Program-made: the position numbers and the translations under genes | NCBI GenBank assembly: GCA_002842205.1 | Contig: PHCI01000029.1 | Span: forward strand, 1-64,000 | Direction of reading: 5' to 3' | DNA: 64,000 nt | Source: Betaproteobacteria bacterium HGW-Betaproteobacteria-3 | Lineage (GTDB): Bacteria > Pseudomonadota > Gammaproteobacteria > Burkholderiales > Burkholderiaceae_C | Part shown: in pieces, positions 46,572 to 63,796 of the stretch | Layout of the letters: the number at the start of each line of letters is the position of its first letter | Position numbering within the stretch: the first letter of the stretch is position 1 | Notes under the pieces: generated by a model | Told to the model about the DNA's origin: nothing | What the model saw: only the letters and a program-made list of their open reading frames with translations | Databases searched by the model: none

Positions 46572-49493
46572 ATGAGCAAAACACTGGTCATCGCCGAGAA
46601 ACCATCGGTCGCGCAGGACATCGTCCGCGCACTCACGCCCGCGGCGGGCAAGTTCGAGAAGCACGACGATCATTTCGAAAACGAAAAGTACATCGTCACC
46701 AGCGCGGTGGGCCATCTGGTCGAGATCCAGGCGCCGGAAGAATTTGACGTCAAGCGCGGCAAATGGAGTTTTGCCAACCTTCCGGTGATTCCGCCGCACT
46801 TTGACCTGAAGCCCATCGACAAGACCAAGTCGCGGCTGGCCGCGGTGGTGCGGCTGGCCAAGCGCAAGGACGTGGACGACCTGATCAACGCCTGTGACGC
46901 GGGCCGCGAGGGCGAACTCATCTTCCGGCTGATCCAGCAGTATTCCAAGGTCAAGCACCCGGTCCGGCGCCTGTGGCTGCAGTCGATGACGCCGCAGGCC
47001 ATCCGCGACGGCTTCGAGCACTTGCGCACCGACCAGCAGATGCTGCCGCTGGCCGACGCGGCGCGCTGCCGCTCCGAGGCCGACTGGCTGGTCGGCATCA
47101 ACGGCACCCGCGCCATGACGGCCTTCAACTCGCGCGATGGCGGGTTTTTCCTGACCACCGTGGGCCGGGTGCAAACGCCCACGCTGTCGGTGGTGGTGGA
47201 GCGTGAGGAGCAGATCCGCAAGTTCATCTCGCGCAACTACTGGGAAATTCACGCCACCTTCCAGGCCGAAGCCGGCCCCTACACCGGCAAGTGGTTCGAC
47301 CCGAAATGGAAGAAGTCCGACGACTCTGAACTCAAGGCCGACCGCGTCTGGACCGAGCGCGAAGCGCAGGCCGTGGCCGAAGCGGTGCGCCACCAGACCG
47401 CCAGCGTCACCGACGAATCCAGGCCCACCACGCAGGCCTCGCCGTTGCTGTTCGACCTGACCTCGCTGCAGCGCGAGGCCAACGGCCGCTTCGGCTTTTC
47501 GGCCAAAACCACGCTGTCGATCGCCCAAAGCCTGTACGAGCGCCACAAGGCGCTGACCTACCCGCGGACCGACTCGCGCGCCCTGCCAGAGGACTATCTG
47601 CCGGTGGTGAAAGACACCTTTGGCATGCTGGCCGACAGCGGCCTCCAGCACCTGGCGCCGCATGCGAAGCTGGCGCTCAAGGACGGCTACATCAAGCCGA
47701 GCAAACGCATTTTTGACAACGCCAAGGTCAGCGACCACTTTGCCATCATCCCGACGCTGCAGGCGCCCAGCGGCCTGTCCGAGGCCGAGCAAAAGGTCTA
47801 CGACCTGGTGGTGCGCCGCTTCATGGCGGTGTTTTTCCCGTCGGCCGAATACCTGGTCACCACCCGCATCACCACGGCCGTGAACCACAGCTTCAAGACC
47901 GAGGGCAAGGTGCTGGTCAAGCCCGGCTGGCTGGCGATCTACGGCAAGGAAGTGCTCGACGAGGACGACGAAAACAGCAAGACCCTGGTGGCCGTGAAAC
48001 CGGGCGAGAAAGTGCGCGCCGACGCCGTCGAGCCCAAGGCGCTCAAGACCCGCCCCCCGGCGCGCTACTCGGAAGCCACGCTGCTGGGCGCCATGGAAGG
48101 CGCGGGCAAGACGGTCGAAGACGACGAGCACCGCGAAGCCATGCAGGAAAAAGGCCTGGGCACGCCGGCCACGCGCTCGTCCATCATCGAAGGCCTGATC
48201 GCCGAGAAATACATGCTGCGCGAAGGCCGCGAGCTGATCCCCACCGCCAAGTCGTTCCAGCTCATGACGCTGTTGCGCGGGCTCGGGGTCGAAGAACTCT
48301 CCAAGGCCGAACTCACCGGCGAGTGGGAGTACAAGCTCGCGCAGATGGAGCACGGCAAGCTCAGCCGCGAATCCTTCATGGGCGAGATTGCGGCCATGAC
48401 CGAGCGCATGGTCAAAAAGGCCAAGGAATACGACCGCGACACCATCCCCGGCGACTACGCCACCCTCAAGGCGCCCTGCCCCAACTGCGGCGGCGTGGTT
48501 CGGGAAAACTACCGGCGCTACGGCTGCGTGGGCAAGGACGGCGCGGGCGAAGGCTGCGGCTTTTCGTTTGGCAAGTCACCCGCCGGGCGCACCTTCGAGC
48601 CGGCCGAAGTCGAGCAGTTTCTGGCCGACCGCAAGATCGGCCCGCTGGAGGGTTTCCGCTCCAAGGCGGGCTGGCCGTTCACCGCCGAGCTGGCGCTCAA
48701 GTTCAACGAGGAAGACAAGAACTGGAAGCTGGAATTCGACTTTGGCGACGACCGCAAGGCCGAAGAGTCGGGCGAGATCATCGACTTCTCCGCCAGCGCC
48801 GCGCTGGGCGCCTGCCCCAAATGCGGCGCCCCGGTGCGCGAACACGGCAGCAACTACGTCTGCGAAAAATCCGTGCCCACGCACGCCCAGCCCACGCCCA
48901 GCTGCGACTTCAAAAGCGGCAAGATCATCCTGCAGCAGCCGGTGTCGCACGAGCAGATCACCAAGCTGCTGGAAACCGGCAAGACCGACCTGCTCGACAA
49001 GTTTGTGAGCATGCGCACGCGCCGCCCGTTCAAGGCCTTCCTGGCCTGGAACAAGGACGAGGGCAAGGTGAGCTTCGAGTTCGAGCCGCGCACCTCCAAG
49101 TTCCCGCCGCGCAAGACGGCCGCCGGCAAGACACCCGCCGCGCCGTTCGGCGCCGCAGCCAAGAAGACCGCCGCAAAAACGGCGGCCGCGAAGAAAGCTC
49201 CGGCCAAAAAAGCCGCCCCCGTCAAGAAGGCTGCCGCGCCCAAGGCCCCGCGCAAGACCACCCCCGGCACGGGCCTGAAGCCGAGCGACGCGCTGGCGGC
49301 GGTGATCGGTGCCGAGCCGGTCGCGCGCACGGCGGTCATCAAGAAGCTGTGGGACTACATCAAGGCCAACGGCCTGCAGGACGCCGCCAACAAGCGCGCG
49401 ATCAATGCCGATGCCAAATTGCTGCCCGTCTTTGGCAAGCCGCAGGTCACGATGTTTGAGCTGGCGGGCATTGTGGGCAAGCATCTGGGTTGA
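46572..49493 (+). CDS. topB: DNA topoisomerase III with C-terminal SWIB domain
   Basis: The 973-residue type IA topoisomerase starts MSKTLVIAEKPSVAQDIVRAL (Toprim), continues NACDAGREGELIFRLI, and has the catalytic tyrosine in LTYPRTDSRALPEDY near residue 330. Two cysteine clusters (CPNCGGVV to YGCVGKDGAGEGC, and CPKCGAPV) follow near residues 635-780. The tail has a Lys/Ala-rich linker (AAAKKTAAKTAAAKKAPAKKA) and a C-terminal SWIB/MDM2-like domain (LKPSDALAAVIGAEPVARTAVIKKLWDYIKANGLQD) from about residue 905. The enzyme resolves single-strand catenanes in replication. Confidence 0.95.
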   Translation: MSKTLVIAEKPSVAQDIVRALTPAAGKFEKHDDHFENEKYIVTSAVGHLVEIQAPEEFDVKRGKWSFANLPVIPPHFDLKPIDKTKSRLAAVVRLAKRKDVDDLINACDAGREGELIFRLIQQYSKVKHPVRRLWLQSMTPQAIRDGFEHLRTDQQMLPLADAARCRSEADWLVGINGTRAMTAFNSRDGGFFLTTVGRVQTPTLSVVVEREEQIRKFISRNYWEIHATFQAEAGPYTGKWFDPKWKKSDDSELKADRVWTEREAQAVAEAVRHQTASVTDESRPTTQASPLLFDLTSLQREANGRFGFSAKTTLSIAQSLYERHKALTYPRTDSRALPEDYLPVVKDTFGMLADSGLQHLAPHAKLALKDGYIKPSKRIFDNAKVSDHFAIIPTLQAPSGLSEAEQKVYDLVVRRFMAVFFPSAEYLVTTRITTAVNHSFKTEGKVLVKPGWLAIYGKEVLDEDDENSKTLVAVKPGEKVRADAVEPKALKTRPPARYSEATLLGAMEGAGKTVEDDEHREAMQEKGLGTPATRSSIIEGLIAEKYMLREGRELIPTAKSFQLMTLLRGLGVEELSKAELTGEWEYKLAQMEHGKLSRESFMGEIAAMTERMVKKAKEYDRDTIPGDYATLKAPCPNCGGVVRENYRRYGCVGKDGAGEGCGFSFGKSPAGRTFEPAEVEQFLADRKIGPLEGFRSKAGWPFTAELALKFNEEDKNWKLEFDFGDDRKAEESGEIIDFSASAALGACPKCGAPVREHGSNYVCEKSVPTHAQPTPSCDFKSGKIILQQPVSHEQITKLLETGKTDLLDKFVSMRTRRPFKAFLAWNKDEGKVSFEFEPRTSKFPPRKTAAGKTPAAPFGAAAKKTAAKTAAAKKAPAKKAAPVKKAAAPKAPRKTTPGTGLKPSDALAAVIGAEPVARTAVIKKLWDYIKANGLQDAANKRAINADAKLLPVFGKPQVTMFELAGIVGKHLG

Positions 49494-49508
49494 TCTGCAA
49501 GCCCTTTA

Positions 49509-49577
49509 GAACTACCGTAAAGATAGCAAACTATTGCCAGTTGACGGGGGATAGATGCTTTTTTTACTATAAATTTA
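49509..49577 (-). repeat. Dispersed AT-rich repeat, copy R8
   Basis: Plus strand: AGATAGCAAACTATTGCCAG then TTGACGGGGGATAGATGC, followed by an A/T run. It occupies the tail-to-tail gap between topB and the HAD gene, where a two-way terminator would be expected. Confidence 0.75.
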
Positions 49578-50274
49578 TGCTTTCCCACCCACGTTGCGCC
49601 GCCACCTCTCGCAGCCGCGGGTCGGGGTTCACCGCCACCGCGCAATCGACCGCCTGCAGCAAGGGCAGGTCGTTGGCAGAGTCGCTGTAGGCGGTGCTCG
49701 TGAACTGCGGCAGTTGGGCACCGCGCTCGGCCAACCACTCGTGCAGCCGCGCCACCTTGCCTTCGCGCATGTTGAGCGTGCCCCGGGTCCGCCCGGTGAA
49801 AACGCCGTCAGCCGCCTCCACTTCGGTGGCGATCAGGTGCGCGATGCCCAGGTGTTGCGCGGTCAGCTCGGTGATGAACCGGTTGGTGGCCGTGGTCAGC
49901 ACGACCAGATCGCCGGCCTCAAGGTGCTGGCGCACCAGCGCCCGTGCCGCCGGGCCGATGCGCGGCACGATATGGGTCGCCAGGAAAGCCTGGCGCAACG
50001 GCTCCCATTGCAACGCCGTGCGGCCCGCCAGGGTGCCGACGTAAAAATCTGCAAACGCCTGCACGCCCACGGTTGCGGCCTGGTAGCGTGCCGCCATGTC
50101 GGCGTTGCGCGGCGCAAAGGTGGCGCGGTCCAGCACGCCCTGGTCCATGAGGAAGTCGCACCAGAGCACGTCGCTGTCGCCCGCCAGCAGGGTGTGGTCG
50201 AGGTCGAACAGGGTCAGGGCCGGGGCCCGAAGCTCCCCGAGGGGGCGCTCGTTCACGCTTGTCTCAGGTGCCAC
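49567..50274 (-). CDS. HAD-superfamily IB hydrolase (phosphoserine-phosphatase-like), last gene of the phn operon
   Basis: The 235-residue protein has the HAD motifs LTLFDLDHTLLAGDS (nucleophile and acid Asp), LVVLTTATNRF (Thr of motif II), a lysine in MREGKVARLHEW and AYSDSANDLPLLQAVD (motif IV). Subfamily IB includes SerB-like phosphatases; small phosphomonoesters such as phosphoserine or phosphoethanolamine are possible substrates. The chosen ATG overlaps the end of the aldehyde dehydrogenase gene by 22 bp, consistent with operon membership. An internal start could give a shorter overlap. Confidence 0.8.
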   Translation of the reverse strand: MAPETSVNERPLGELRAPALTLFDLDHTLLAGDSDVLWCDFLMDQGVLDRATFAPRNADMAARYQAATVGVQAFADFYVGTLAGRTALQWEPLRQAFLATHIVPRIGPAARALVRQHLEAGDLVVLTTATNRFITELTAQHLGIAHLIATEVEAADGVFTGRTRGTLNMREGKVARLHEWLAERGAQLPQFTSTAYSDSANDLPLLQAVDCAVAVNPDPRLREVAAQRGWESINL

Positions 50275-51626
50275 GCCTTCGGGCGCGTGAAGGTTTCAAT
50301 GCCATCGGTGGACAGCGTCAGGCCCACCCCGGAATCGCCATAGCCGCTCCAGGGCAGGCGGGGGCTGACACGGTCGCAGCAGTTCCAGTACACGCTGCCA
50401 GCGTCGACCTGCGCCAGCAGGCGCCGCGCCCGCGCTTCGTCGCGCGTGAACACGCCCGCCGTCAGGCCGTAGCGCGTGTCGTTCATGAGGCGCACCGCTT
50501 CGTCGTCGCCGCCCACTTTCTGGATGCCGATGATGGGGCCGAAGCTTTCTTCACGCATCAGCTCCATGCCGTGGTTGACGTGGCTGAACACCGTCGGCTC
50601 GAACCAGTTGCCCGGGCCCGGGCCGCGCCGCCCGCCGACGTGGAGCGTCGCCCCCTTGGCCAGCGCGTCGGCCACCTGGGCCTCCAGCACGTCGAGCTGC
50701 GGTGCGCGGGTGATGGCGCCGATGTAGGTGTCGTCGCGCGCGGGGTCGCCCGTCTGGAAGGTTTTGACCGTGTCCACAAACGCGGCGACGAAGGCGTCGT
50801 GGATCTTCTCGTGCACATAGATGCGCTCGACCGAGCAGCAGCTCTGGCCCGTGTTGTACATGGCGCCGTCGGCCAGCGACGCAGCGGCCGCCTTCGGGTC
50901 GGCGTCGTCGCACACGTAGGTCGGGTCCTTGCCACCGAGCTCGAGCTGCAGCTTGATGAAGCGGTCGCCCACGGCCTGGGCGATGCGCTTGCCGGTGGCG
51001 TAGGAGCCGGTGAAAAACACGCCATCCACCTTTTGCGCCAGCAGGGCCGCCCCCACCTCGCCCGCGCCCACCAGGCACACCATGACGTCGGGTGGCACCC
51101 CTGCGGCGTGCAGCAGGCGCGCGATTTCCAGGCCGGTCATCGTGGCGTATTCCGACGGCTTGTAGAGCACGGCATTGCCCGTCAGCAGCGCGGGCAGGAT
51201 CACGTTGCAGCCGACAAACCAGGGGTAGTTCCAGGCCGAGATGTTGACCACCACGCCCAGCGGAACGTGCTGGATCTGCTCGGTCATGCCGCCGTCATTG
51301 AACACGGTGCGGCTGGTCAGTGCGGCTTCGGTTTCCTCGAGGAAAAAATCGATGCGCCCGAGCAGGCCGTTGAGTTCGTTGCGCGACATCGCGATGGGTT
51401 TGCCGGTCTCGCGCGTCATGGTCAGGGCCAGCGGTTCGAGTTCGGCCACCACGGCAGCCCGAAACCGCGCCACGCAGGCCTGGCGCTCGGTCAGGGGCTG
51501 CGCGGCCCAGGCCGGTTGGGCCGCGCGCGCACGGCTGGCCTTGGCCGCAACCGAGGCTGCGTCGTCGGCCGGCAGGGTGGTGATCAACTGCCCGTCGGCA
51601 GGGTTATGGATGGCAAGCGTGTTCAT
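50253..51626 (-). CDS. Aldehyde dehydrogenase of the phn-linked amino-alcohol module
   Basis: The 457-residue NAD(P)-dependent enzyme has SAWNYPWFVGCNVILPALLTGNAVLYKPSE, the catalytic glutamate in LQLELGGKDPTYV and the nucleophilic cysteine in NTGQSCCSVERIYV. It overlaps the glutamine amidotransferase by 4 bp. In the proposed route it would oxidise gamma-glutamyl-aminoacetaldehyde (or a similar protected amino aldehyde) to the acid. It is clearly distinct from PhnY at 62339. A general succinate-semialdehyde-type activity is the alternative. Confidence 0.85.
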   Translation of the reverse strand: MNTLAIHNPADGQLITTLPADDAASVAAKASRARAAQPAWAAQPLTERQACVARFRAAVVAELEPLALTMTRETGKPIAMSRNELNGLLGRIDFFLEETEAALTSRTVFNDGGMTEQIQHVPLGVVVNISAWNYPWFVGCNVILPALLTGNAVLYKPSEYATMTGLEIARLLHAAGVPPDVMVCLVGAGEVGAALLAQKVDGVFFTGSYATGKRIAQAVGDRFIKLQLELGGKDPTYVCDDADPKAAAASLADGAMYNTGQSCCSVERIYVHEKIHDAFVAAFVDTVKTFQTGDPARDDTYIGAITRAPQLDVLEAQVADALAKGATLHVGGRRGPGPGNWFEPTVFSHVNHGMELMREESFGPIIGIQKVGGDDEAVRLMNDTRYGLTAGVFTRDEARARRLLAQVDAGSVYWNCCDRVSPRLPWSGYGDSGVGLTLSTDGIETFTRPKAWHLRQA

Positions 51627-52420
51627 GTTCGGTTTTTCAGGGTTTTGGCAGCTTCGGCCGCCGTCAAAAAATCGTCCAGCAAGGCCGCGTCGTCGATGGT
51701 GTCGGAGCCGGGTTGGTGAAACTCAGGGTGCCATTGCACTGCCGCCATGTAGCTCTTGCCCGGATCCTTGCGCCGGATGGCCTCGATCAGCCCGTCGTCG
51801 GCGCTCCAAGCTTCGGGGGCAAACTCGGACGCCAGGTCCTTGATCGCCTGGTGGTGGATGCTGTTGACACGCACGCGCTCCACGCCAGGGTACAGGGCCG
51901 ACAGCCGCGTGCCCTGCTGGATGTCCACGCTGTGGTAGTTCAGGTCGTAGGTCGATGCGTCGCGGTGCTGTGTGGCCTTGGGCAGTTGCGTCGGAATGTC
52001 CTGGTACAGGGTGCCGCCAAAGGCCACATTGAGCAGTTGCAGGCCACGGCAGACGCCGAACACGGGTTTGCCCTGCGCTTCGAAGGCGGCCACCAGGGCC
52101 ATGTCGTATTCGTCGCGGATGCGGTCGCCGGCCCATTTCTCGTCCAGCGGGGTTTCACCGTAGCTGCCAGGCCAGAGATCGGCGCCGCCGTGCAGCACCA
52201 GGCCGTCCAGCCACTGGGCGTAGTGTTCGTAAGTCACATCTCCGCGCTGGGTGCTGCCGGTGGGGCAGGGCACCATGACCACCATGGCGCCCGAGGACAT
52301 GACCCAGTGGGCGATGGACTGCTCCACGTATTGAAGCGTCTTGCCCGTGAACAGCGAGCGGGCGGGGTCGGCGTGGTTGAAACAGGCCGACAGAGCGATT
52401 TTCAGGCGACGGGCCGACAT
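51623..52420 (-). CDS. Class I glutamine amidotransferase-like gamma-glutamyl hydrolase (PuuD/IpuF-like)
   Basis: The 265-residue protein has the nucleophile elbow PVFGVCRGLQLLNVAFGG and the catalytic His-Glu in AAVQWHPEFHQPG, with the peptidase-C26 pattern DGLVLHGGADLWPGSYGE. Relatives cleave gamma-glutamyl-GABA (PuuD) or gamma-glutamyl-alanine (IpuF). The neighbouring gamma-glutamyl ligase makes it the release step that returns glutamate. It lies 7 bp after the iron alcohol dehydrogenase. Confidence 0.85.
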   Translation of the reverse strand: MSARRLKIALSACFNHADPARSLFTGKTLQYVEQSIAHWVMSSGAMVVMVPCPTGSTQRGDVTYEHYAQWLDGLVLHGGADLWPGSYGETPLDEKWAGDRIRDEYDMALVAAFEAQGKPVFGVCRGLQLLNVAFGGTLYQDIPTQLPKATQHRDASTYDLNYHSVDIQQGTRLSALYPGVERVRVNSIHHQAIKDLASEFAPEAWSADDGLIEAIRRKDPGKSYMAAVQWHPEFHQPGSDTIDDAALLDDFLTAAEAAKTLKNRT

Positions 52421-52427
52421 GGCAGGC

Positions 52428-53561
52428 TCACATTGCGGCCTCGAACAACCGACGGAAATCGTCGGCGGTGCAAGGGCGCGGGTTGGTCTGGTGGCAGATG
52501 TCGGCCGTGGCGATCTCCACCAGACGCGGCAGGTGTTCGGGTTTGACGCCGTGCGCCGAGAGCGGGCCGGTGATGCCCACTGTGGCCTTGAGCGACCGCA
52601 GCCACGGCACGAAAGCCGCTCCGCCACCCGGCACCTTGCAGACGTGCGCCAGCTCGTCAAACTTGGCCGGCACGGCCTCAAAGTTCCAGGCCAGGACGGT
52701 GTCGATCATCAATGCGTTGGCCAGGCCGTGGTGCAGGTCGCACACGGCCCCGAGCGCATGGGCGCACGAGTGCACCGCGCCCAGGTCTTTCTGGAACGCG
52801 ATGGCGCCCATCATGGACGCCATCATCATGTCGCTGCGCGCCTGCAGGTTGCCCGGCTCCTGCACCGCCGTGCGCAAGGCCGCAGCGGCAATGCGCGTGC
52901 CTTCCAGCGCAATGCCATCGCACAAGGGGTGGTAGGCAGGCGAGAGATAACTTTCGATGTTGTGGGTCAGGGCGTCCATGCCCGTGGCGGCGGTCACGGC
53001 GACGGGCAAACCCAAAGTGAGCTCGGGGTCGGCGAACACGGTTTTGGCCAGAATGGCCGGGCTGAAGACCACGCGCTTGAGGTGCGTGTCGTTCTCGCTC
53101 ACCACCGACGAGCGCCCCACCTCCGAGCCGGTGCCCGAGGTGGTGGGCAGGGCCACAAACCAGGGCAGGGGGTTGACGATGGGACGCACCTGGGGGTGGT
53201 CCCACACGTATTCGAGGATGTCGCCCGGGTGGGTGGCCGCGACACCGACCACCTTGGCCACGTCCAGCGCCGCGCCGCCGCCAAAGCCGATCACGCAGTC
53301 CGCCGCATGGGCCTGGTAGGCAGCCGCGCCGTCCATGACCTGGCTGCAGGTGGGGTTGCCAAACACGCCCGAGAACACGGCCACGTCCAGGCCGGCCAGA
53401 TGGGTCCGGAATTCGGCCAGCACCGCCAGCGCGCCCAGCGCCCGGTCGGTGACGATGAGCGGGCGCTTCAGTCCTTGGTCCCGCAGGTGCTGCGCAACGA
53501 GCTTGCGTGCGCCAGCGCCGAACCGGATGGCGGTGGGAAAGGAAAAACTGGTGATGGTCAT
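52428..53561 (-). CDS. Iron-containing alcohol dehydrogenase
   Basis: The 377-residue enzyme has the NAD-binding GFGGGAALDVAKVVG, ALPTTSGTGSEVG and the metal-ligand helices GMDALTHNIESYLSPAYHPLCDGIALEG and VHSCAHALGAVCDLHHGLANALM. In context it would oxidise a gamma-glutamylated amino alcohol such as gamma-glutamylethanolamide. An alternative is the phosphonate alcohol 2-hydroxyethylphosphonate, since Fe-alcohol dehydrogenases interconvert it with phosphonoacetaldehyde in some pathways. The ATG at 53561 is chosen; 105 bp separate it from the ligase gene. Confidence 0.88.
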   Translation of the reverse strand: MTITSFSFPTAIRFGAGARKLVAQHLRDQGLKRPLIVTDRALGALAVLAEFRTHLAGLDVAVFSGVFGNPTCSQVMDGAAAYQAHAADCVIGFGGGAALDVAKVVGVAATHPGDILEYVWDHPQVRPIVNPLPWFVALPTTSGTGSEVGRSSVVSENDTHLKRVVFSPAILAKTVFADPELTLGLPVAVTAATGMDALTHNIESYLSPAYHPLCDGIALEGTRIAAAALRTAVQEPGNLQARSDMMMASMMGAIAFQKDLGAVHSCAHALGAVCDLHHGLANALMIDTVLAWNFEAVPAKFDELAHVCKVPGGGAAFVPWLRSLKATVGITGPLSAHGVKPEHLPRLVEIATADICHQTNPRPCTADDFRRLFEAAM

Positions 53562-53666
53562 GATGAAGATGGTCGGGGAAATGATCGGGGAAATAGGGTC
53601 AGAAAAATGGCCGGTGGATCGCGGCGACACGCCGAGCGCCCGCCACCGGGGTGGCGCTCATTTCTT

Positions 53667-55076
53667 TCAAATGATTTCGAAGTAACGCTTGAGCTCCCAG
53701 TCGGTCACGCCGTCCAGCCACTGGCGCCACTCCCATTCGCGGGTGGCGGCAAAGTGGTCCACAAACGTGTCGCCGAGCCAGTCCCGGGCGATGTCGGACT
53801 TGCTGAAATTTCGGGTGGTTTCGATCAGTGTGCGCGGGGCCCGCGGAATATGCTCAGCGCCCCCGTTGGTGCCGGTGATCGGCGGTGCGGTGAGCTTGAG
53901 CCCCTTTTCAACCCCGTCCAGCCCGGCCGCAATGACCGCCGCCATCGCCAGATATGGGTTCACGTCGGCGCCGGGGCAGCGCGTCTCGAGCCGCGTGGCT
54001 TTGGGACTGCCCGCGATCACGCGAAAACTCGCGGTGCGGTTGTCCATGCCCCAGGTGGGTTTGACGGGGGCCCAGAAACCGTCCACCAGACGCTTGTAGC
54101 TGTTGATGGTGGGCCAGAACATCGGCGCAAACTCCATCAGGCAGGCCACCTGCCCGGCCAGATAGCTCTCGAAGAGTTTGCTCATCTTGCGCGGGCTTTT
54201 GTTGTCGAAGAACAGGTTGGTCTTGCCATCCGACAGGCTTTGGTGGATGTGCCCCGAACACCCCGGCAGTTGCTGGTGCCACTTGGCCATGAAGCTGGGC
54301 ATGATGCCGAAGCGTTTGCCAATCTCGCGCGCACCGGTCTTGAACAGGATGGCGCGGTCGGCCTGTGCCAGTGCCTCGCTGAAGCCGATGGCCACCTCAT
54401 AAACCCCGGGGCCGGTTTCAGTGTGCAGGCCTTCGATGGGCACGTCGAAAGCCAGCATGTCGTCCATCAGGGCGTTGAAGAATCCGCCGTGGTCCGCCAT
54501 GCGCAGGAGTGAGTAGCCAAACATGCCCGGCGTGATGGGCTCGGGGTCCACGCCTTTCTTGGCGGCCCAGGTTTGGGGCGTCTCGCGAAAGTTGAACCAC
54601 TCGAATTCCATCCCCGTCATGGGCATGACGCCGAGCTTTTCCGCGCGCCTGAGCACGCGCTTGAGCGTCTGGCGCGGGCACACCGCGTGCGGTGTGCCGT
54701 CGGCGTTCACGAACTCGCCCAGGAAAAACGGCACGTTGTGGTCCCAGGGCACGCGGCGCGCCGTGTCCAGATCGAGCCGGGCCAGGGCATCGGGAAACCC
54801 ATGCTGCCAGCCCGTGACCGTGGTGTTGTCATAGCAGGTGTCGCTGGAATCCCAGCCCAGCACCACATCGCAAAAGCCGAAGCCACCCCCGGGATAGGGC
54901 TCGGCTGCTCCCATGAACTTGCCCAGATGCAGGTATTTGCCGCGCAAAATGCCGTCGATGTCGCTGACGGCCACCTTGACTTTGGTGGCACCCGATTTGC
55001 GGACCGCCGCCAGGGCGGGGTGTTCGGCAAGCGCGCGGGCGGCGGCAGGCATTGGGGTGACAGGTTTTCGAGCCAT
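53667..55076 (-). CDS. Glutamine-synthetase-like gamma-glutamyl-amine ligase
   Basis: The 469-residue protein keeps the ATP/metal core of glutamine synthetase: ExE at Glu157/Glu159, Glu220 and Glu227 (LHTETGPGVYEVAI), the SGHIHQS loop with His276, NRTASFR (Arg347, Arg352) and RLETRCPGADVNPYLA (Glu364). It lacks the adenylylation loop of type-I GlnA. Its length and motifs fit the PuuA/IpuC/GlnA4 group, which couples glutamate to putrescine, isopropylamine or ethanolamine. With an alcohol dehydrogenase and no PuuB-type amine oxidase beside it, an amino alcohol is the likely acceptor. It starts 11 bp after phnW. Confidence 0.9.
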   Translation of the reverse strand: MARKPVTPMPAAARALAEHPALAAVRKSGATKVKVAVSDIDGILRGKYLHLGKFMGAAEPYPGGGFGFCDVVLGWDSSDTCYDNTTVTGWQHGFPDALARLDLDTARRVPWDHNVPFFLGEFVNADGTPHAVCPRQTLKRVLRRAEKLGVMPMTGMEFEWFNFRETPQTWAAKKGVDPEPITPGMFGYSLLRMADHGGFFNALMDDMLAFDVPIEGLHTETGPGVYEVAIGFSEALAQADRAILFKTGAREIGKRFGIMPSFMAKWHQQLPGCSGHIHQSLSDGKTNLFFDNKSPRKMSKLFESYLAGQVACLMEFAPMFWPTINSYKRLVDGFWAPVKPTWGMDNRTASFRVIAGSPKATRLETRCPGADVNPYLAMAAVIAAGLDGVEKGLKLTAPPITGTNGGAEHIPRAPRTLIETTRNFSKSDIARDWLGDTFVDHFAATREWEWRQWLDGVTDWELKRYFEII

Positions 55077-55087
55077 GGTGATGTCCT

Positions 55088-56206
55088 TCAAACGGCCGGT
55101 GCGCCGGATTCAATGCCCAGGTCCTGCAAGGCGAGCGCCACCGCGTGAACCGCCTGCTCCATCTCGTCGGGCCCGATCGCACCGATGCAACCGACCCGGA
55201 AGGTTTCGATCTGCGTCAGCTTGCCCGGGTACAGCACAAAACCGCGCGCCCGTACTGCCTCGTAGAACGCCCTGAATTCATAGCGCGGGTCGCCGGGTGC
55301 GTGAAAGGTCACGATGATGGGCGCCTGAACCGCTGGTTCCAGAAAAGGCATGAAGCCCAGTTGCGCCATGCCATGGATCAGGGTCTGGTAGTTGCGTGTG
55401 TAGCGGGCCAGCCGGGCCGGCTGACCGCCCTCTTCCTGGAACTGCAGCAAGGCTTCGGCCAGCGCCACCACCACATGCGTGGGCGGCGTAAAGCGCCACT
55501 GGCCGGTTTTTTCCATGTAGCTGTGCTGGTCGTACAGGTCCATCGCGAGCGACTGGCTGCGGCCAGCGCAGGCGTCGAGGATCGCCTTGCGGATGAACAC
55601 AAAACCCATGCCGGGCACGCCTTCGAGGCATTTCCCGCTGGCCGCGACAAGAGCGTCAAAACGGATCTTGCGAGCGTCAATTTCAAGCGCCGCGAACGAG
55701 CTCATCGCGTCAACGATCAGCCCCTTGCCATGCGCCGCGCAAACGTCCGCCACCTGCTGCAGGGGATTCAGCACGCCGGCGCCCGTCTCGCAGTGGACCA
55801 GCACCACGTGGGTGATCGTCGGATCGGCCTGAAGGGCGTCGTGCAATGCGGCAGCCGAAACCTGGGCGGCTTCGTCAAAGCCCAGGACGGTGCAGCGCCG
55901 GCCCATCAGCGTGGTCAGGCGCGCCGCGCGCTTGCAGTAGGCCCCGTTGTCGAGCACCAGCACATGGCCATCGCGCGGCACGAGGGTGGCCACCGCCGCC
56001 TCCACACTGAAAGTGCCGCTGCCCTGCAACGGCACCACCACATGCGAGGCCTGCCCCTGGATCACGTCCAGCAGTCCGTGTCGCACACGGGCCGTCACGG
56101 CGATGAAATCACTGTCCCACGAACCCCAGTCTTTCAGCATCGCCAGCTTGGTGCGCTGAGTGGTGGTGAGGGGGCCGGGGGTCAGCAGGATTTTGTCTCT
56201 GTCCAT
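55088..56206 (-). CDS. phnW: 2-Aminoethylphosphonate--pyruvate transaminase
   Basis: PhnW moves the amino group of 2-aminoethylphosphonate to pyruvate, giving phosphonoacetaldehyde and alanine. The 372-residue class-V aminotransferase starts [23 protein letters not shown], has [27 protein letters not shown], and the PLP lysine in [18 protein letters not shown]. It sits between the permease and the GS-like ligase in one operon (24 bp and 11 bp gaps). Confidence 0.94.
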
Positions 56207-56230
56207 GGAAAGCTCGGTGGGGGGGTCAAT

Positions 56231-57949
56231 TTACCGCGAAGTGGTGCGCCATGCCTGGGTGTGCTGGTTGGCCCACCAGGCCAGCGCCATGAAAAGCAGG
56301 GTGGCCGCCGTGGAGACGACGCCAATCAGCACCGCCATGGCCGCAGCCGCGCCGATTTCGCCGGCCTCGTCCAGGTTCAGGATGGCGATGGACGCCACCT
56401 TGGTCTCGGGCGAATACAGGAACACGACCGCAGAGATGGTGGTCATGGCGTTGATGAAAAAATAGCGCGCGATGTCCACCAGCGCCGGGGTGCAGATGGG
56501 CAGTGTGACCCGCCAGAAGGTCTTGAAAAATGGCACCTTCAAGGACGCGCTGACGGCTTCAAATTCACCGTCCAGAGCCTTGAGCGACGTCACCGCCGTC
56601 AGGTGCCCGGTGGTATAGAAATGGACGATGGTGCACAGCGTCAGCAGCGTCATGGTGTGGTAGAGGCCATTCAACGGATTGTCGGGCGCGTTGAAGAAAA
56701 AGATGTAGCCCAGCCCGAGCACCAGGCCTGGCACCGCCATGGGCAGGATGGTGAGCATCCGCACCAGGCTGCGCAGCCCGTTCATGCCCCGCGTTTTTTC
56801 AAGCAGGTATGCCACCGTGAACACCAGCGCCGTGCCAAACAGGGCCGTGCCGCCCGCCATCTTGAGGCTGTTGACGAAGCCTTCGCCCACCTCGGCGTCC
56901 ACCAGCCCCATGGTGTAGTGGCGCAGGCTCGGGCTCAGGTTGTAGGGCCAGAAACTCGCGAACGAGGCAAACACCGCCATGCCCAGCATGGCCAACACCG
57001 CGAAAGCAATGAGGCTGCAATAGGCCGTCATGGCCAGGTCATGACCCCGCGCCGGTCGGGGGCGGTATGGCACCGCGCGTGCCGTCAGCATGGCCGTCTG
57101 GCGCGCACTCACGTATTTGTCCACCGCAAACGTCAGCACCGCCGGCGCCAGCAACACGATGGCCACCACCGCCCCGCGCGCAAAGTCCTGCTGGCCGATC
57201 ACGAGCTTGAACACGTCCGTGGCCAGCACATTGAAGTTGCCGCCAATCACCTTGGGAATGCCGAAATCGGTGATCACCAGGGTGAAGGTCACCAGCGACG
57301 CCGAAATCAGCCCGTATTTCGCGCCGGGCAAGGTGATGGTGAAGAATTTCCGCACGGCGGTGGTTCCCATGGCGTCGGCCGCTTCGTACAGACGCGCGTC
57401 CGACAGGCTGAGCGCCGTGACGAGAATCATGAGCGCGTGGGGAAACACCGCAAAACACTCGGCGATCACGATGCCGGGGGCCCCGTAAATCTCTGCATAG
57501 CCCATTGCAGTCAACCAGCTCTTGAGCGCCCCCTGGTTGCCAAACCAGTAAATCAGTGAAATGGCCGACAGCAGCGAGGGGGCCAGCAGCGGGATCAGCG
57601 TGATGCCACGAAACAGGGCCTTCAGGGGCATGCACGAACGGGCCAGCGCGTAGGCAAACACAAACGCCAGCGGCACCGCAATGAACATCACCAGCGTGGA
57701 CACCCACAGACTGTTCCACAGGCTCTCCAGCAGCGCCGGTGTTTTGGCATAGCCGACGAAGTTGGCAAACCCGACAAATTCACCCGCCTTGCCTTGCAGT
57801 GCCTGCTGCAGGATCGCCAGCAAGGGCAGGGCCAGAAACGCCACCAACAGCACGGCGCCCAGCGCCAGCCCCAGTTGGGCCACGCGGTCGGTCCAGTGCG
57901 CGCGCTGGCGCACAGCGGGGGCAGCGGGCACAGGCAGAACGGCCGACAT
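56231..57949 (-). CDS. phnU: 2-Aminoethylphosphonate ABC transporter permease (double-length)
   Basis: The 572-residue permease has two homologous halves, each with about six membrane segments and an EAA loop (YEAADAMGTTAVRKFFTITLPGAK in the first, EAVSASLKVPFFKTFWRVTLPI in the second). This fused layout is typical of the phnU2-type importer related to Fe(III)-type permeases. It works with the ATPase at 57965 and the binding protein at 59155. Confidence 0.9.
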   Translation of the reverse strand: MSAVLPVPAAPAVRQRAHWTDRVAQLGLALGAVLLVAFLALPLLAILQQALQGKAGEFVGFANFVGYAKTPALLESLWNSLWVSTLVMFIAVPLAFVFAYALARSCMPLKALFRGITLIPLLAPSLLSAISLIYWFGNQGALKSWLTAMGYAEIYGAPGIVIAECFAVFPHALMILVTALSLSDARLYEAADAMGTTAVRKFFTITLPGAKYGLISASLVTFTLVITDFGIPKVIGGNFNVLATDVFKLVIGQQDFARGAVVAIVLLAPAVLTFAVDKYVSARQTAMLTARAVPYRPRPARGHDLAMTAYCSLIAFAVLAMLGMAVFASFASFWPYNLSPSLRHYTMGLVDAEVGEGFVNSLKMAGGTALFGTALVFTVAYLLEKTRGMNGLRSLVRMLTILPMAVPGLVLGLGYIFFFNAPDNPLNGLYHTMTLLTLCTIVHFYTTGHLTAVTSLKALDGEFEAVSASLKVPFFKTFWRVTLPICTPALVDIARYFFINAMTTISAVVFLYSPETKVASIAILNLDEAGEIGAAAAMAVLIGVVSTAATLLFMALAWWANQHTQAWRTTSR

Positions 57950-57964
57950 GACGGGTGCGGCGCC

Positions 57965-59089
57965 TCAGGCCAGCGCCGGCGTTGCGTGCGCGGATGCCGG
58001 TTGCACGCCCGGCGGCAGGTCGAACACCTTGATGCGTTCGGGCAGCAGCTTCAACCGCACCGTGGAGCCCACCGCGAGCGACTGCTCGGCCAGGAAGTTC
58101 AGCGAGAGGTACACCGTGAGCCGGTGGGACGCGAACGTGGGCGAGGTCACGTGCACATGGCAATACGAACCGAGAAATTCGATTTTCTCGATGCAGGCTT
58201 CAAACACATGGGCGTCGCCCGGCGCAATCGGCCGGGCCAGTACGTCTTCGGGCCGCAGGTACACCCGGACGTCCCGATCGCCACGGTCGTCCCGGTCGCC
58301 ACCGCTGAACGGCATGCTCAGCGCACCCATCTGCAGCACGCCGTCGGCAATACGGGCCGGCAATGCGTTGACCTTGCCCACAAAGTCGGCGACGAATGGC
58401 GACGCGGGCTCACGGTAGATTTCCATGGGTGTGCCGGTCTGTTCGATCACGCCGTGGTTCATCACGACAATGCGGTCGGCCACGCTGAGCGCCTCTTCCT
58501 GGTCGTGCGTCACCATGATGGTGGTGACGCCAAGCGTCTGCTGCAAGACGCGGATTTCCTGGCGCAGGCGCACCCGCTCCAGCGCATCCAGCGCCGACAG
58601 GGGCTCGTCCAGCAGCAGCAAACCGGGTGAGGTGGCCAGTGCACGCGCCAGCGCAATCCGTTGCTGTTGCCCGCCCGAAAGCTGGGCCGGGTATTTGTTC
58701 TCGCTGCCGGGCAGACCGACAAGCTTGACCAGTTCCTCCACCCGCCGCCGGATTTCAATTCTGGGCGTTTTCCGGTTGACCAGCCCATAGGCCACGTTGT
58801 CGGCCACGCTCAGGTTGGGAAACAGCGCATAGCTCTGGAACACGATGCCGTAGTCGCGCTGGGCGGGTGGCAGACGGGAGATGTCTCTCCCCGCCTGGAA
58901 CACCTCGCCAGCGGTCTGCACCTCCAGCCCGGCAATGATGCGCAGCAAGGTGGTCTTGCCGCAGCCCGACGGCCCGAGGAAGCAGACGAACTCACCCTTG
59001 CGGATGCCAAGGTTGATGTCGTGCAACGCGGTGAAGCCGCCAAACGCCTTGTGGACATGCCGCAAATCGAGAAAAAGATCGTGGGTCAT
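57965..59089 (-). CDS. phnT: 2-Aminoethylphosphonate ABC transporter ATPase
   Basis: The 374-residue ATPase has Walker A GPSGCGKTTLLRIIAGLE, Q-loop FQSYALFPNLSV, signature LSGGQQQRIALARALA, Walker B LLLLDEPLSALD and switch His in MVTHDQEEALS. A TOBE-like regulatory domain follows residue 240. The ATG at 59089 (MTHDLFLDLRHVHK) is chosen because the domain begins there. Confidence 0.93.
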   Translation of the reverse strand: MTHDLFLDLRHVHKAFGGFTALHDINLGIRKGEFVCFLGPSGCGKTTLLRIIAGLEVQTAGEVFQAGRDISRLPPAQRDYGIVFQSYALFPNLSVADNVAYGLVNRKTPRIEIRRRVEELVKLVGLPGSENKYPAQLSGGQQQRIALARALATSPGLLLLDEPLSALDALERVRLRQEIRVLQQTLGVTTIMVTHDQEEALSVADRIVVMNHGVIEQTGTPMEIYREPASPFVADFVGKVNALPARIADGVLQMGALSMPFSGGDRDDRGDRDVRVYLRPEDVLARPIAPGDAHVFEACIEKIEFLGSYCHVHVTSPTFASHRLTVYLSLNFLAEQSLAVGSTVRLKLLPERIKVFDLPPGVQPASAHATPALA

Positions 59090-59154
59090 GCCGTGCGGGA
59101 CATTTGAAAAAGGGGGCGACGCTGCCGCCGCACCAACGGGACGGTGGCGGTGGG

Positions 59155-60192
59155 TCAGCGCTTTTCGGACTTGCTGTTGTAGCGCCGGGTCCATTCGGCC
59201 AGAATGCGCTCGCGGTTCTCGGCAGCCCAGCCAAAGTCCATTTTGACGAGGCGTGCCTCGTAGTCCTTGGGCACGTTGGCCAGCGGTGCGGCCACCCCCG
59301 GCTGCGCCGTGATGGCGAAGTTCTTGCCGTACAGCAGCATGGCGTCCTTGCTGGAAGCCCAGTCGGCGAGTTTCTTCGCGGCGTCAAGCTTTTTCGTGCC
59401 CTTGTGGATGGCAAAGGCCTCCAGATCCCAGCCCAGCCCTTCTTTCGGGAACACCAGATCAATGGGCGCACCCTTGGCCTTGTTGGCGTTGCCGCGGTAT
59501 TCAAACGAAATGCCGACCACGAATTCGCCCGACGCCGCCATGTTGCAGGGCTTGGAGCCCGAATGCGTGTACTGGGCGATGTTCTCGTGCAGGCCGTCCA
59601 TGAACTTCCAGCCACCGCCTTTGCCCTTGTCGTCGCCAAACAGCGTGAGCCAGGCCGTCACGTCGAAATAACCGGTGCCGCTGGACGCCGGGTTGGGCAT
59701 CACCACCTGGCCCTTGTAGACCGGCTTGGTCAGGTCTTTCCAGGTTTCCGGTTTCGGGATATTGCGTTTTTGGGCCTCTACCGTGTTGAAGCAGACCGTG
59801 GCCCCCCACACGTCCATGCCAAACCAGGCCGGGACTTTTTTCTTGTCCCGGTACTGGCTCATGATGGCGTCCAGATTGAGGGGCGCATAAGGCTCAAGCA
59901 TGCCCTGCAGGTCCAGCAGCGCCAGGCTCGAGGCGGCGACGCCCATGACCGCGTCGGCCTGCGGGTTGGCCTTTTCGGCCAGCAGCTTGGCCGTGATCAC
60001 GCCGGTGGAGTCGCGAACCCATTTGATTTCAATGTCCGGGTTGGATTTGGCGAAGCCATCGGCGTAGGCTTTGAGCTGGTCGGTCTCCAGCGCGGTGTAC
60101 ACCAGCAGTTGGGTTTTCTGGGCCGTAGCCGCCGCCGCAAAGGAAAACAACCCACCCAACACGAGGGTTTTGGCGATCAGGGACAAACGCAT
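59155..60192 (-). CDS. phnS: 2-Aminoethylphosphonate-binding periplasmic protein
   Basis: The 345-residue protein has a signal peptide (MRLSLIAKTLVLGGLFSFAAAATAQ) and a type-2 periplasmic-binding fold of the Fe(III)/spermidine class (LLVYTALETDQLKAYADGFAKSNPDI, MPNPASSGTGYFDVTAWL, FEYRGNANKAKGAPIDLVFP). It is the first gene of the leftward operon. A TTGACA/TTAAAT promoter lies about 110-135 bp upstream. Confidence 0.92.
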   Translation of the reverse strand: MRLSLIAKTLVLGGLFSFAAAATAQKTQLLVYTALETDQLKAYADGFAKSNPDIEIKWVRDSTGVITAKLLAEKANPQADAVMGVAASSLALLDLQGMLEPYAPLNLDAIMSQYRDKKKVPAWFGMDVWGATVCFNTVEAQKRNIPKPETWKDLTKPVYKGQVVMPNPASSGTGYFDVTAWLTLFGDDKGKGGGWKFMDGLHENIAQYTHSGSKPCNMAASGEFVVGISFEYRGNANKAKGAPIDLVFPKEGLGWDLEAFAIHKGTKKLDAAKKLADWASSKDAMLLYGKNFAITAQPGVAAPLANVPKDYEARLVKMDFGWAAENRERILAEWTRRYNSKSEKR

Positions 60193-60298
60193 CTCTAGCT
60201 CCTTCAGGACAAAAGTGGAAATACTGCGACCCAACGGTGACGGTGCAATGACATGCCGACCAGCTTCATCCCCCCTCGACCCCGCACACCTCGCGGTG

Positions 60299-60327
60299 AT
60301 TTAACTTCGCGCCCCATTTGTTGTCAA
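60299..60327 (-). promoter_or_regulatory. Sigma70-type promoter of the leftward phn operon
   Basis: On the minus strand TTGACA (60327-60322) is followed after exactly 17 nt by TTAAAT (60304-60299). The -35 lies inside one arm of the presumed regulator operator, so a bound regulator would block it. Confidence 0.65.
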
Positions 60328-60351
60328 TTGTTATTTGTAGATTGTTGACAA
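60321..60351. promoter_or_regulatory. Inverted-repeat operator in the phn divergent region
   Basis: TTGTCAA (60321-60327) and TTGACAA (60345-60351) form a 7-bp inverted repeat with a 17-nt AT-rich spacer. It lies between the phnS and GntR-regulator genes, in a clear AT-rich dip. The most likely binder is the GntR/FadR-type regulator encoded at 60380. The right arm also contains a TTGACA that could be the -35 of the rightward genes. Confidence 0.65.
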
Positions 60352-60379
60352 TTATTTTGTTTGTGCTTCAATCGAGGCG

Positions 60380-61081
60380 ATGAGCGCCGCGCTTCACCCC
60401 ACCATTGCACTGCTTCAAAGCAGTTCACTCACCACCGTGGTGCAGCAGGAGATCGAGCGCGCCATTCTGGTGGGCGAATACCCTCCGGGCAGCAAATTGA
60501 TCGAGGCCGCCCTGGCTGAAAAGATGGGCGTCTCACGCGGCCCGGTCCGGGAAGCCTTTCGCATGCTCGACGAAGCGGGCCTGGTCCGCACCGAAAAAAA
60601 CCGGGGCGTGTTCGTGCGCGACATCCCGATCGACGAGGCCGTGGAGATCTTCGACCTGCGCGCCGCCATGGACGAGCTGGTCGGTCGCCAGCTGGCACAG
60701 CACATCACGCCACCGCAGCTCAAGGAGATCAAGGGCCTGGTGGATTCGATGGAAAAAGCCGTCAAGGCCGAAGACGCACACCACTACCACTTGCTCAACC
60801 TGCAGTTTCACGACCGCCTGGTCGAGATGGCGGGCAACCGCAAACTCACGGCCATTTACCGCAAGCTCATCAAGGAGCTGTCGCTGTTTCGCCGGCTCAA
60901 TCTGGCCGACGGCTGGCTGATGCCGATTTCAGCCAACGAGCACCGCCAGATCGTCAAGGCGATTGCCTCGGGCGACGCCGATACCGCGGGCCGCGCCATG
61001 TTCGACCATGTGATGGAAAGCAAGGAGCGAACCATCGCCAACGACCTGCGCCGCCAGTCCCGGGCACAGGGCAAAACCTGA
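60380..61081 (+). CDS. phnR: GntR/FadR-type phosphonate-utilisation regulator
   Basis: The 233-residue protein has an N-terminal winged helix (TTVVQQEIERAILVGEYPPGSKLIEAALAEKMGVSRGPVREAFRMLDEAGLV) and a C-terminal FCD domain (EIFDLRAAMDELVGRQLA, FHDRLVEMAGNRKL, NEHRQIVKAIASGDADTA) with His residues that usually bind a metal and effector. This subtype is found with phnA/phnY/phnW in Burkholderiales. It probably represses both operons until a phosphonate intermediate binds. Confidence 0.9.
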   Translation: MSAALHPTIALLQSSSLTTVVQQEIERAILVGEYPPGSKLIEAALAEKMGVSRGPVREAFRMLDEAGLVRTEKNRGVFVRDIPIDEAVEIFDLRAAMDELVGRQLAQHITPPQLKEIKGLVDSMEKAVKAEDAHHYHLLNLQFHDRLVEMAGNRKLTAIYRKLIKELSLFRRLNLADGWLMPISANEHRQIVKAIASGDADTAGRAMFDHVMESKERTIANDLRRQSRAQGKT

Positions 61082-62323
<1,242 letters not shown>

Positions 62324-62338: not shown

Positions 62339-63796
62339 ATGATCGAACAATTCATCCGGGACCATCAGCTCGACCAGATGCGCATCGCCGGGCGCAAGGT
62401 CGGTGCCGATCGCGGTGGCGACCGTGTCATCCACGTGACCAACCCCTACTCGGGACGGGTGATCGGCACGGTGCCCAAGGCCACCCTGGAAGAGGTGCGC
62501 GAGGCCTATGCCAGCGCGCATGCTTTTACGCCAACCCTCAGCCGCTATGAGCGCGCCGCCATCCTGCAGCGCGCGGCCGAACTCATCCGCCAACGGCTGG
62601 ACGAAGTGGCCGCGCTCATCACGGCCGAGGCCGGGCTGTGCTGGAAAGACGCCGTGTACGAGGCCGGGCGTGTGAGCGACGTGCTGCTGTTCGGCGCCAA
62701 CGAAGTGCTCAAGGACGACGGCCAGATTTTCAGCTGCGACCTCACCCACCATGGCAAGAAAAGACGCGTCTACACCCAGCGCGCGCCGCTGCTGGGCGTG
62801 ATCACCGCCATCACGCCGTTCAACCATCCGGTGAACCAGGTGGCGCACAAGGTGGTGCCCGCCATTGCCACCAACAACCGCATGGTGCTCAAGCCGTCCG
62901 AAAAGGTGCCGTTCTCGGCCCTCCTGTTCGCCGACATCCTGTACCAGGCCGGCCTGCCGCCCGAGATGCTCAGCGTGATCACCGGCGACCCGAAGGAAAT
63001 CGCCGATGAACTGATCACCCACCCGCAGGTCGATCTGGTGACGTTCACCGGTGGCGTGGCCATCGGCAAGTACATCGCGCGCACCGCCGGGTACCGCCGC
63101 CTGGTGCTGGAACTGGGCGGCAACGACCCGATCATCGTCATGGAAGACGCCGACCTGGACGAAGCCTCCACGCTCGCGGTGCAGGGCAGCTACAAGAACT
63201 CGGGCCAGCGCTGCACCGCCGTCAAGCGCATGCTGGTGCATGAGGCCGTGGCCGACCGGTTTGTCGAACAGCTGGTCGAGAAAACCCGCGCCTGGAAGTT
63301 CGGCGACCCGATGGACCCGTCCAACGACATGGGCACGGTGATCGACGAGCCCGCGGCCCGGTCATTCGAGGCGCGCGTCCACGAAGCGGTGGCGCAGGGC
63401 GCGAAGCTGCTCGCGGGCAACCAGCGCAGCGGCGCCTTGTACGCCCCCACGGTGCTGGACCATGTGGACCCGCGCATGACCGTGGTGCGCGAAGAAACCT
63501 TCGGCCCGGTGTCGCCGGTCATCCGGTTTCGCGACATCGACGAGGCCATCCGCATTGCCAACGGCACGGCGTACGGCCTGTCCAGTTCGGTGTGCACCAA
63601 CCGGCTCGACCACATCACGCGCTTCATCAGCGAACTGCAGGTGGGTTCGGTCAATGTGCGGGAGGTGCCCGGCTACCGGCTGGAGCTGACGCCGTTTGGC
63701 GGCATCAAGGACTCGGGGCTGGGCTACAAGGAGGGGGTGCAGGAGGCCATGAAAAGCTTCACCAACCTCAAGACCTATTCCCTGCCCTGGGGGTGA
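62339..63796 (+). CDS. phnY: Phosphonoacetaldehyde dehydrogenase
   Basis: PhnY oxidises phosphonoacetaldehyde from PhnW to phosphonoacetate for PhnA. The 485-residue ALDH has ITPFNHPVNQVAHKVVPAIATNNRMVLKPSEK, the general base in LVLELGGNDPIIVME and the nucleophile in NSGQRCTAVKRML. It is 15 bp after phnA in the same operon. Confidence 0.93.
   Translation: MIEQFIRDHQLDQMRIAGRKVGADRGGDRVIHVTNPYSGRVIGTVPKATLEEVREAYASAHAFTPTLSRYERAAILQRAAELIRQRLDEVAALITAEAGLCWKDAVYEAGRVSDVLLFGANEVLKDDGQIFSCDLTHHGKKRRVYTQRAPLLGVITAITPFNHPVNQVAHKVVPAIATNNRMVLKPSEKVPFSALLFADILYQAGLPPEMLSVITGDPKEIADELITHPQVDLVTFTGGVAIGKYIARTAGYRRLVLELGGNDPIIVMEDADLDEASTLAVQGSYKNSGQRCTAVKRMLVHEAVADRFVEQLVEKTRAWKFGDPMDPSNDMGTVIDEPAARSFEARVHEAVAQGAKLLAGNQRSGALYAPTVLDHVDPRMTVVREETFGPVSPVIRFRDIDEAIRIANGTAYGLSSSVCTNRLDHITRFISELQVGSVNVREVPGYRLELTPFGGIKDSGLGYKEGVQEAMKSFTNLKTYSLPWG

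Follow-up and report, generated by a model that had tools for sequence, protein, structure and literature searches.

In the 64,000 nucleotides analysed from Betaproteobacteria bacterium HGW-Betaproteobacteria-3 (contig PHCI01000029.1, positions 1 to 64,000 of the forward strand; hereafter the window), a run of nine minus-strand genes, phnS-phnT-phnU-phnW-GS-FeADH-GGAH-ALDH-HAD (49567-60192), joins the import and transamination of 2-aminoethylphosphonate (AEP) to a glutamine synthetase (GS)-like ligase, an iron-type alcohol dehydrogenase (Fe-ADH), a PuuD-like hydrolase (GGAH), an aldehyde dehydrogenase (ALDH) and a HAD-IB phosphatase. We propose, with a probability of about 0.8, that these genes form one unit under a GntR/FCD regulator which would salvage AEP and ethanolamine together, the latter by a gamma-glutamyl route to glycine. 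The proposal is built on sequence and comparison, i.e. gene content and order, conservation, catalytic residues, a shared operator motif and ethanolamine-linked neighbours in relatives. In the predicted scheme, a single transcript would start from a promoter region controlled by the GntR/FCD regulator. PhnSTU would bring in AEP, and PhnW, PhnY and PhnA would convert it to acetate and phosphate. The ligase would couple glutamate to ethanolamine in an ATP-dependent reaction, the Fe-ADH would oxidise the glutamylated alcohol to the aldehyde, the ALDH would oxidise the aldehyde to gamma-glutamylglycine, and the PuuD-like hydrolase would release glycine and recycle glutamate. Ethanolamine is a common membrane-lipid head group, and the operon would salvage two head groups of lipid type, AEP and ethanolamine.

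Both pathways are known separately; as far as we have seen, their conserved join, the operator that links them and the accompanying phosphatase are undescribed. If the operon takes both compounds, counts of AEP genes in soil and freshwater Burkholderiales would also report on ethanolamine use. The comparison would also provide a candidate substrate for a ligase clade that is widespread and at present carries just a glutamine synthetase annotation, and would point to a phosphatase that can be tested. The features concerned are listed below (window coordinates, strand, feature).

60341-60352, no strand, palindrome ATTGTTGACAAT, proposed GntR/FCD operator, between gntR and phnS
60380-61081, plus, GntR/FCD regulator (Pfam GntR and FCD)
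61109-62323, plus, phnA, phosphonoacetate hydrolase (TIGR02335, 621.9 bits, cut-off 407.55)
62339-63796, plus, phnY, phosphonoacetaldehyde dehydrogenase (TIGR03250, 863.9 bits, cut-off 635.65)
59155-60192, minus, phnS2, substrate-binding protein of the AEP importer (TIGR03261, 502.8 bits, cut-off 392.75)
57965-59089, minus, phnT2, ATPase (TIGR03265, 494.6 bits, cut-off 457.7)
56231-57949, minus, phnU2, permease (TIGR03262, 792.1 bits, cut-off 593.25)
55088-56206, minus, phnW, AEP:pyruvate aminotransferase (TIGR02326, 494.5 bits, cut-off 400.8; NF010006, 569.2 bits, cut-off 296)
53667-55076, minus, GS-like ligase, proposed gamma-glutamylethanolamide synthetase (Pfam Gln-synt_C; GlnA cut-offs far from reached)
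52428-53561, minus, Fe-type alcohol dehydrogenase, proposed gamma-glutamylethanolamide dehydrogenase (Pfam Fe-ADH)
51623-52420, minus, PuuD-like class-I amidotransferase (GGAH), proposed gamma-glutamylglycine hydrolase (Pfam Peptidase_C26)
50253-51626, minus, aldehyde dehydrogenase, proposed gamma-glutamyl-aminoacetaldehyde dehydrogenase (Pfam Aldedh)
49567-50256, minus, HAD-IB phosphatase, last gene of the operon (TIGR01490, 142.7 bits, cut-off 98.3)

Gene order and the shared palindrome

The open reading frames of phnW, the ligase, the Fe-ADH, the hydrolase and the ALDH are all present on the minus strand (50253-56206), with gaps downstream of phnW of 11, 105 and 7 bp followed by a 4-bp overlap. 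Order, orientation and spacing are as given in a preliminary description made from the sequence without database searches, and the open reading frames and Pfam matches bear them out. Upstream of phnW lie phnS, phnT and phnU; downstream, the HAD-IB gene overlaps the ALDH gene by 4 bp and is followed by a convergent topA (46572-49493). phnA and phnY are divergent from the operon, beyond the gntR regulator gene. PhnS2, PhnT2, PhnU2, PhnW, PhnY and PhnA all score above their NCBIfam curated cut-offs, as expected for an AEP catabolic operon. The region in this respect resembles the AEP route phnSTUW with phnYA, named for Burkholderia multivorans in the accessible text of PMC10590968, and goes beyond it by the extra ligase, Fe-ADH, hydrolase, ALDH and HAD genes. 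The accessible parts of published phosphonate gene-context papers show none of these. A literature search combining AEP with ethanolamine glutamylation, outside which most subscription papers lay, found no description of the join either, in agreement with the earlier remark that no described locus is known to unite the two pathways.

The four enzymes of a gamma-glutamyl ethanolamine pathway (ligase, alcohol dehydrogenase, ALDH and amidohydrolase) are encoded together. None of the four proteins reached an NCBIfam cut-off among the matches listed (for the ALDH, 25 of 45 families). Pfam scans of the operon proteins found no amine-oxidase family, i.e. no PuuB, and the ligase obtained 166.9 of the 650 bits set for gamma-glutamylputrescine synthetase (NF045547), both in keeping with the original view that putrescine is an unlikely substrate. 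There is no tRNA gene in the window.

A palindrome in the gntR/phnS gap is proposed as the site at which the GntR/FCD regulator would act. The window holds one exact copy of ATTGTNNACAAT (60341-60352). Across 2.45 Mb of gathered loci, in which some contigs are duplicates, 69 exact copies were found against 0.25 expected from base composition; after removal of duplicates, an exact copy is present in 57 of the 61 distinct sequences carrying a gntR ortholog of >50% identity. The gap between gntR and phnS or phnW accounts for nearly all copies. At three loci with no phn genes nearby (L039, L087, L100; gntR 79-82% identical), an exact copy immediately precedes the ligase, with a permease gene on its other side, and genome G039 is without a true phnW genome-wide. 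The AEP-only loci L162 and L165 also hold the motif. The motif thus accompanies whichever module a locus carries. The proposed joint processing of AEP and ethanolamine is read from gene order and this shared operator.

The nine genes are presumed to be co-transcribed. The preliminary description had named a promoter within the operon, in the gaps at 53562-53666 or 55077-55087, as evidence that would count against it. A simple, hence weak, sigma-70 scan of 49400-61200 gave no support for one: it listed two sites where 1.3 were expected, each of them on the plus strand, and none on the minus strand. The stretch 53562-53680, spanning the ligase/Fe-ADH gap, folds no better than its shuffles (z 0.80). 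Terminator-like sites number 15 against 10.3 expected (sd 3.9). One hairpin with a T-run lies on the minus strand between phnS and phnT (59115-59131), sites of this kind being barely commoner than in shuffles.

Recurrence of phnW beside the ligase

The preliminary description had suggested a search across Burkholderiales for the GS-like gene beside phnW. Named loci (the best 80 of 376) were gathered together with stretches from sampled genomes, giving 111 distinct loci with a ligase ortholog of >60% identity, seven duplicate contigs having been dropped. The samples used were a family sample of 150 genomes, nearly all standing for one genus each, an order sample of 300 and a phylum sample of 398. 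The join recurs: in 72 of the 111, phnW precedes the ligase on the same strand, with a gap of <=150 bp in 54 of these, <=500 bp in 59 and <=4500 bp in 71, the widest being 8468 bp (L111). In the family sample, the ligase at >=80% identity occurs in 26 genomes and PhnW above its cut-off in 29, with 19 genomes having both, i.e. phnW accompanies the ligase in 19/26 genomes against 10/124 without it (Fisher p=1.4e-11; here and below such p-values are guides, since the genomes are related and their independence is overstated). Together, these linkage counts indicate that the join is more than chance. The next ligase relatives in the family sample are 34-48% identical.

Neighbour counts were restricted to the 71 of the 111 loci seen whole, loci showing <5.2 kb on the upstream side of the ligase or <5.3 kb on its downstream side being excluded. 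Near the ligase, Fe-ADH was found in 69 of these, ALDH in 68 and the hydrolase in 62, all three being present in 62. In the order sample, 14 genomes carry the ligase at >=64% identity; phnW lies within 60 bp of it in three (the window genome included), at 1.6 kb in G356, and is 10-28 kb off or absent in the remainder. The phylum sample gave eight ligase matches at E<=1e-100 besides the window genome, all 46-49% identical. As no match there exceeds 49% outside the window genome, the ligase clade is seen only in Burkholderiales. A contig filed as uncultured delta proteobacterium (L142), which may be misbinned, carries an 84% identical ligase and an Fe-ADH.

The arrangement might also have arisen by chance, as two unrelated operons that adjoin but are expressed apart. 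This would suit the 0.5-2.8 kb insertions between phnW and ligase or ligase and Fe-ADH at some loci, and the genomes that keep the ligase set without phn genes. We regard this as very unlikely given the 54 same-strand loci with phnW within 150 bp, the lack of minus-strand sigma-70-like sites in the scan above, and the operator motif of the phn regulator, which precedes the ligase even where phn genes are absent.

Another explanation is that the ligase glutamylates AEP or 2-amino-1-hydroxyethylphosphonate, the dehydrogenases then processing gamma-glutamyl-phosphonates. The close phnW-ligase spacing would suit this, and hydroxylated AEP would supply an alcohol for the Fe-ADH. Against it, the ligase occurs with no phnW nearby in 24 of the 71 loci seen whole. 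A quick-method tree of 122 ligase sequences places copies linked to phnW, linked to a permease or unlinked in one interleaved family, the starred branches forcing at least 11 changes of the phnW label. The enzyme thus probably has one function whether or not AEP genes are present, an argument against AEP being the substrate, and the PhnW, PhnY and PhnA of the window by themselves make up a full route for AEP breakdown. We give glutamylation of a phosphonate hardly any probability.

Two kinds of additional genes were observed at these loci. A small acetyltransferase-like gene, named by its look, lies between ligase and Fe-ADH in 13 loci, or 12 (L037, L039, L040, L052, L081, L090, L097, L102, L106, L109, L110 and L124) once the duplicate L084 is set aside. 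Class-III aminotransferase genes lie near phnW or the ligase in L053 (10874-12313), L040, L060, L162 and L170; the L053 gene matches Pfam Aminotran_3 and those of L162 and L170 are 34-52% identical. These could be PbfA-like or phospho-lyase genes.

Ethanolamine as the probable substrate of the four-gene set

Ethanolamine is well supported as the substrate of the four-gene set, for this genome by comparison with relatives, and most likely the four genes turn it into glycine. The preliminary description had put forward a gamma-glutamyl route for an ethanolamine-like amino alcohol giving glycine; it gains support from ethanolamine permease-type neighbours, from eutBC replacing the set in its operon slot, from the avoidance of EutB and from the same four enzyme types in a published operon.

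Firstly, a permease with TIGR00908 (ethanolamine permease) as best NCBIfam match lies directly beside the ligase in 15 loci, nine of which are without phnW in the tree label and six of which have the permease between phnW and ligase. In the family sample, all 16 permeases above the TIGR00908 cut-off are on the contig of EutB, and 15 of them immediately adjoin it. Secondly, locus L156 (genome G011) reads phnS-phnT-phnU-phnW-EutB-EutC-HAD, with EutBC in the exact slot of the four genes (EutC: PF05985, 306.8 bits), and in L157 (G074) EutBC is about 1.6 kb from gntR-phnSTUW. EutBC, the ethanolamine ammonia-lyase, is an unrelated cobalamin enzyme whose product is acetaldehyde rather than glycine. 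Its presence in the slot of the four genes indicates that both likely act on the same substrate. Thirdly, in the family sample EutB occurs in 1/26 genomes with the ligase against 42/124 without it (Fisher p=0.0014), and EutB was not found in the window genome. As a side observation, EutA (in L168) and a divergent EutB-like gene with about 42% identity to the EutB of G011 precede the ligase in its own orientation (L168:11906-14719 and L169:12335-13615).

The enzymes keep their catalytic residues. All 118 ligase sequences compared have unchanged residues for metal, glutamate and ATP, and the position of E327 of glutamine synthetase is Trp335 in 118/118; the accessible text of PMC6529630 reports the same change for PauA7. 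As evidence on the substrate these residues are partial, since the D50 position aligns with an Asp. The GlnA curated scores are not reached (TIGR00653, 203.6/429.15; TIGR03105, 197.3/469.6). Also invariant are D196, H200, H268 and H278 of the Fe-ADH (110 sequences), C124, H231 and E233 of the hydrolase (85 sequences) and E229 and C263 of the ALDH (97 sequences).

Two described systems offer a comparison, each taken from the accessible text of its report. The ethanolamine operon of Phaeobacter sp. MED193, RpiR-GGAH-EtoVWX-ETAGA-GAADDH-GETADH, encodes an ethanolamine gamma-glutamylase, a gamma-glutamylethanolamide dehydrogenase, an aldehyde dehydrogenase and a gamma-glutamylglycine amidohydrolase, is induced on phosphorylethanolamine, and its genes are said to resemble those shown in Chromohalobacter and Agrobacterium (PMC10132767). 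The four enzyme functions and proposed end products match those of the window set, whereas the window operon has no dedicated ethanolamine importer, is joined to AEP import and transamination, has GntR/FCD in place of RpiR and differs in gene order. A Paracoccus plasmid likewise has the TRAP, GS, ALDH and Fe-ADH types in a row, its TRAP-linked ligase being only about 35% identical to that of the window. In Streptomyces coelicolor, GlnA4 is a gamma-glutamylethanolamide synthetase for which the same later steps are proposed (PMC6529630). Its cluster is like the window set in combining ligase, alcohol and aldehyde dehydrogenases and amidohydrolase to take ethanolamine to glycine, and unlike it in having a short-chain instead of an Fe-type alcohol dehydrogenase and, as described, no phosphonate genes. 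It is also described as being without a conserved permease (PMC6529630); a missing importer therefore does not exclude the pathway.

Several observations weigh against ethanolamine and against the joint unit. The two permeases that were scanned (363.4 and 372.8 bits) fall just below the TIGR00908 cut-off of 381.75 and are near misses; a permease is nearby in only 10 of the 71 loci seen whole; and the permease-type gene between phnW and ligase in L059 (G061:C4:564991-566379) has one in-frame TGA. The preliminary description had recognised AEP import only, which holds for the operon: a dedicated ethanolamine importer is absent there, an importer-type gene being found in the 15 related loci, and no protein of the window genome matches TIGR00908 at E<=1e-60, TRAP-type ethanolamine importers not having been sought. 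EutB beside phnW is rare (2/7 genomes with both in the family sample, 0/8 in the order sample). G039, the sole family-sample genome with both, combines ligase and EutB, and two order-sample genomes, G265 and G304, have a divergent EutB within a few genes of the ligase. In 9 of the 71 loci seen whole, no GGAH lies near the ligase. The D50 position of glutamine synthetase still aligns with Asp in the ligase, i.e. one of the two ammonia-site acids is changed. The relatedness of the genomes, which tempers the p-values, is to be counted here too.

A broader specificity has also to be considered, in which the substrate of the set is a different amino alcohol or amine (1-amino-2-propanol, 3-aminopropanol or isopropylamine derivatives) and the ethanolamine-linked neighbours are due to a broad substrate range. 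Plasmid proteins annotated ipuC share 38-40% identity with the ligase, slightly above the 34.9% of the TRAP-linked Paracoccus ligase. EutBC in the same slot and the ethanolamine-family permeases point instead to ethanolamine itself, and we consider another amine unlikely.

The HAD-IB phosphatase at the end of the operon

Although the four-gene set separates it from phnW, the HAD gene goes with phnW: 38 of the 47 loci with phnW have it near the ligase, against 1 of the 24 without (p=2e-10). Among the 47 phnW loci, it is present in 37/41 with phnU against 1/6 without (p=0.0005), four of those six being close relatives. Among family-sample phnW loci, it occurs in 16/20 with the ethanolamine set against 1/7 without (p=0.004); G089 and G064, whose contigs end too soon, were left out, and G077 was scored as being without HAD although just ~2 kb past phnW is visible. 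HAD directly follows phnW in L163, L170 and L186, and follows EutBC in L156.

Phosphoethanolamine is the phosphate-ester isostere of AEP. From gene context, the HAD protein may release ethanolamine from imported phosphoethanolamine. In the resulting head-group salvage operon, PhnSTU would import both AEP and phosphoethanolamine, HAD would split the latter, the gamma-glutamyl set (or EutBC in G011) would consume the ethanolamine and PhnW-PhnY-PhnA the AEP, with one GntR controlling both branches. We offer this extension tentatively and think it somewhat doubtful; if true, the repeated joining of the two pathways would be explained by the phosphatase as the bridge between them. Among the best solved relatives of PhnS2 are 4r72, 8x1a and 6wce; 4r72 and 6wce, according to the accessible part of their descriptions, bind sugar phosphates and pyridoxal phosphate, and this binding of phosphate compounds was counted in favour of phosphoethanolamine import by PhnSTU. 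Against the bridge stand G125, which has phnSTUW-HAD-phnX and neither ligase ortholog nor EutB; the 4 of 41 phnU loci without HAD; histidinol-phosphatase as the nearest named family of the HAD protein (NF052360, 234.5 of 280 bits, cut-off not reached); and AepX, another AEP binding protein, given as highly specific for AEP in the accessible text of PMC8316502, which does not bring up phosphoethanolamine.

Two other functions were considered for the HAD protein. A housekeeping histidinol-phosphatase was rejected, since 34 of 36 genomes keep another, better-scoring HAD copy away from the operon (268-315 bits). In a tree of 26 rows, a well-supported branch (98/93) sets the operon HADs apart. C-P bond hydrolysis was rejected as a general account, since the window has PhnA and PhnY, and G125 has phnW-HAD-phnX; it may still apply to G356 and G385 (L170 and L186), where phnW and HAD are present and neither phnA nor phnX exceeds its curated cut-off. 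The window genome itself holds a second phnA outside the window (G000:C18:69227-70435), which scores 629.5 bits against the cut-off of 407.55.

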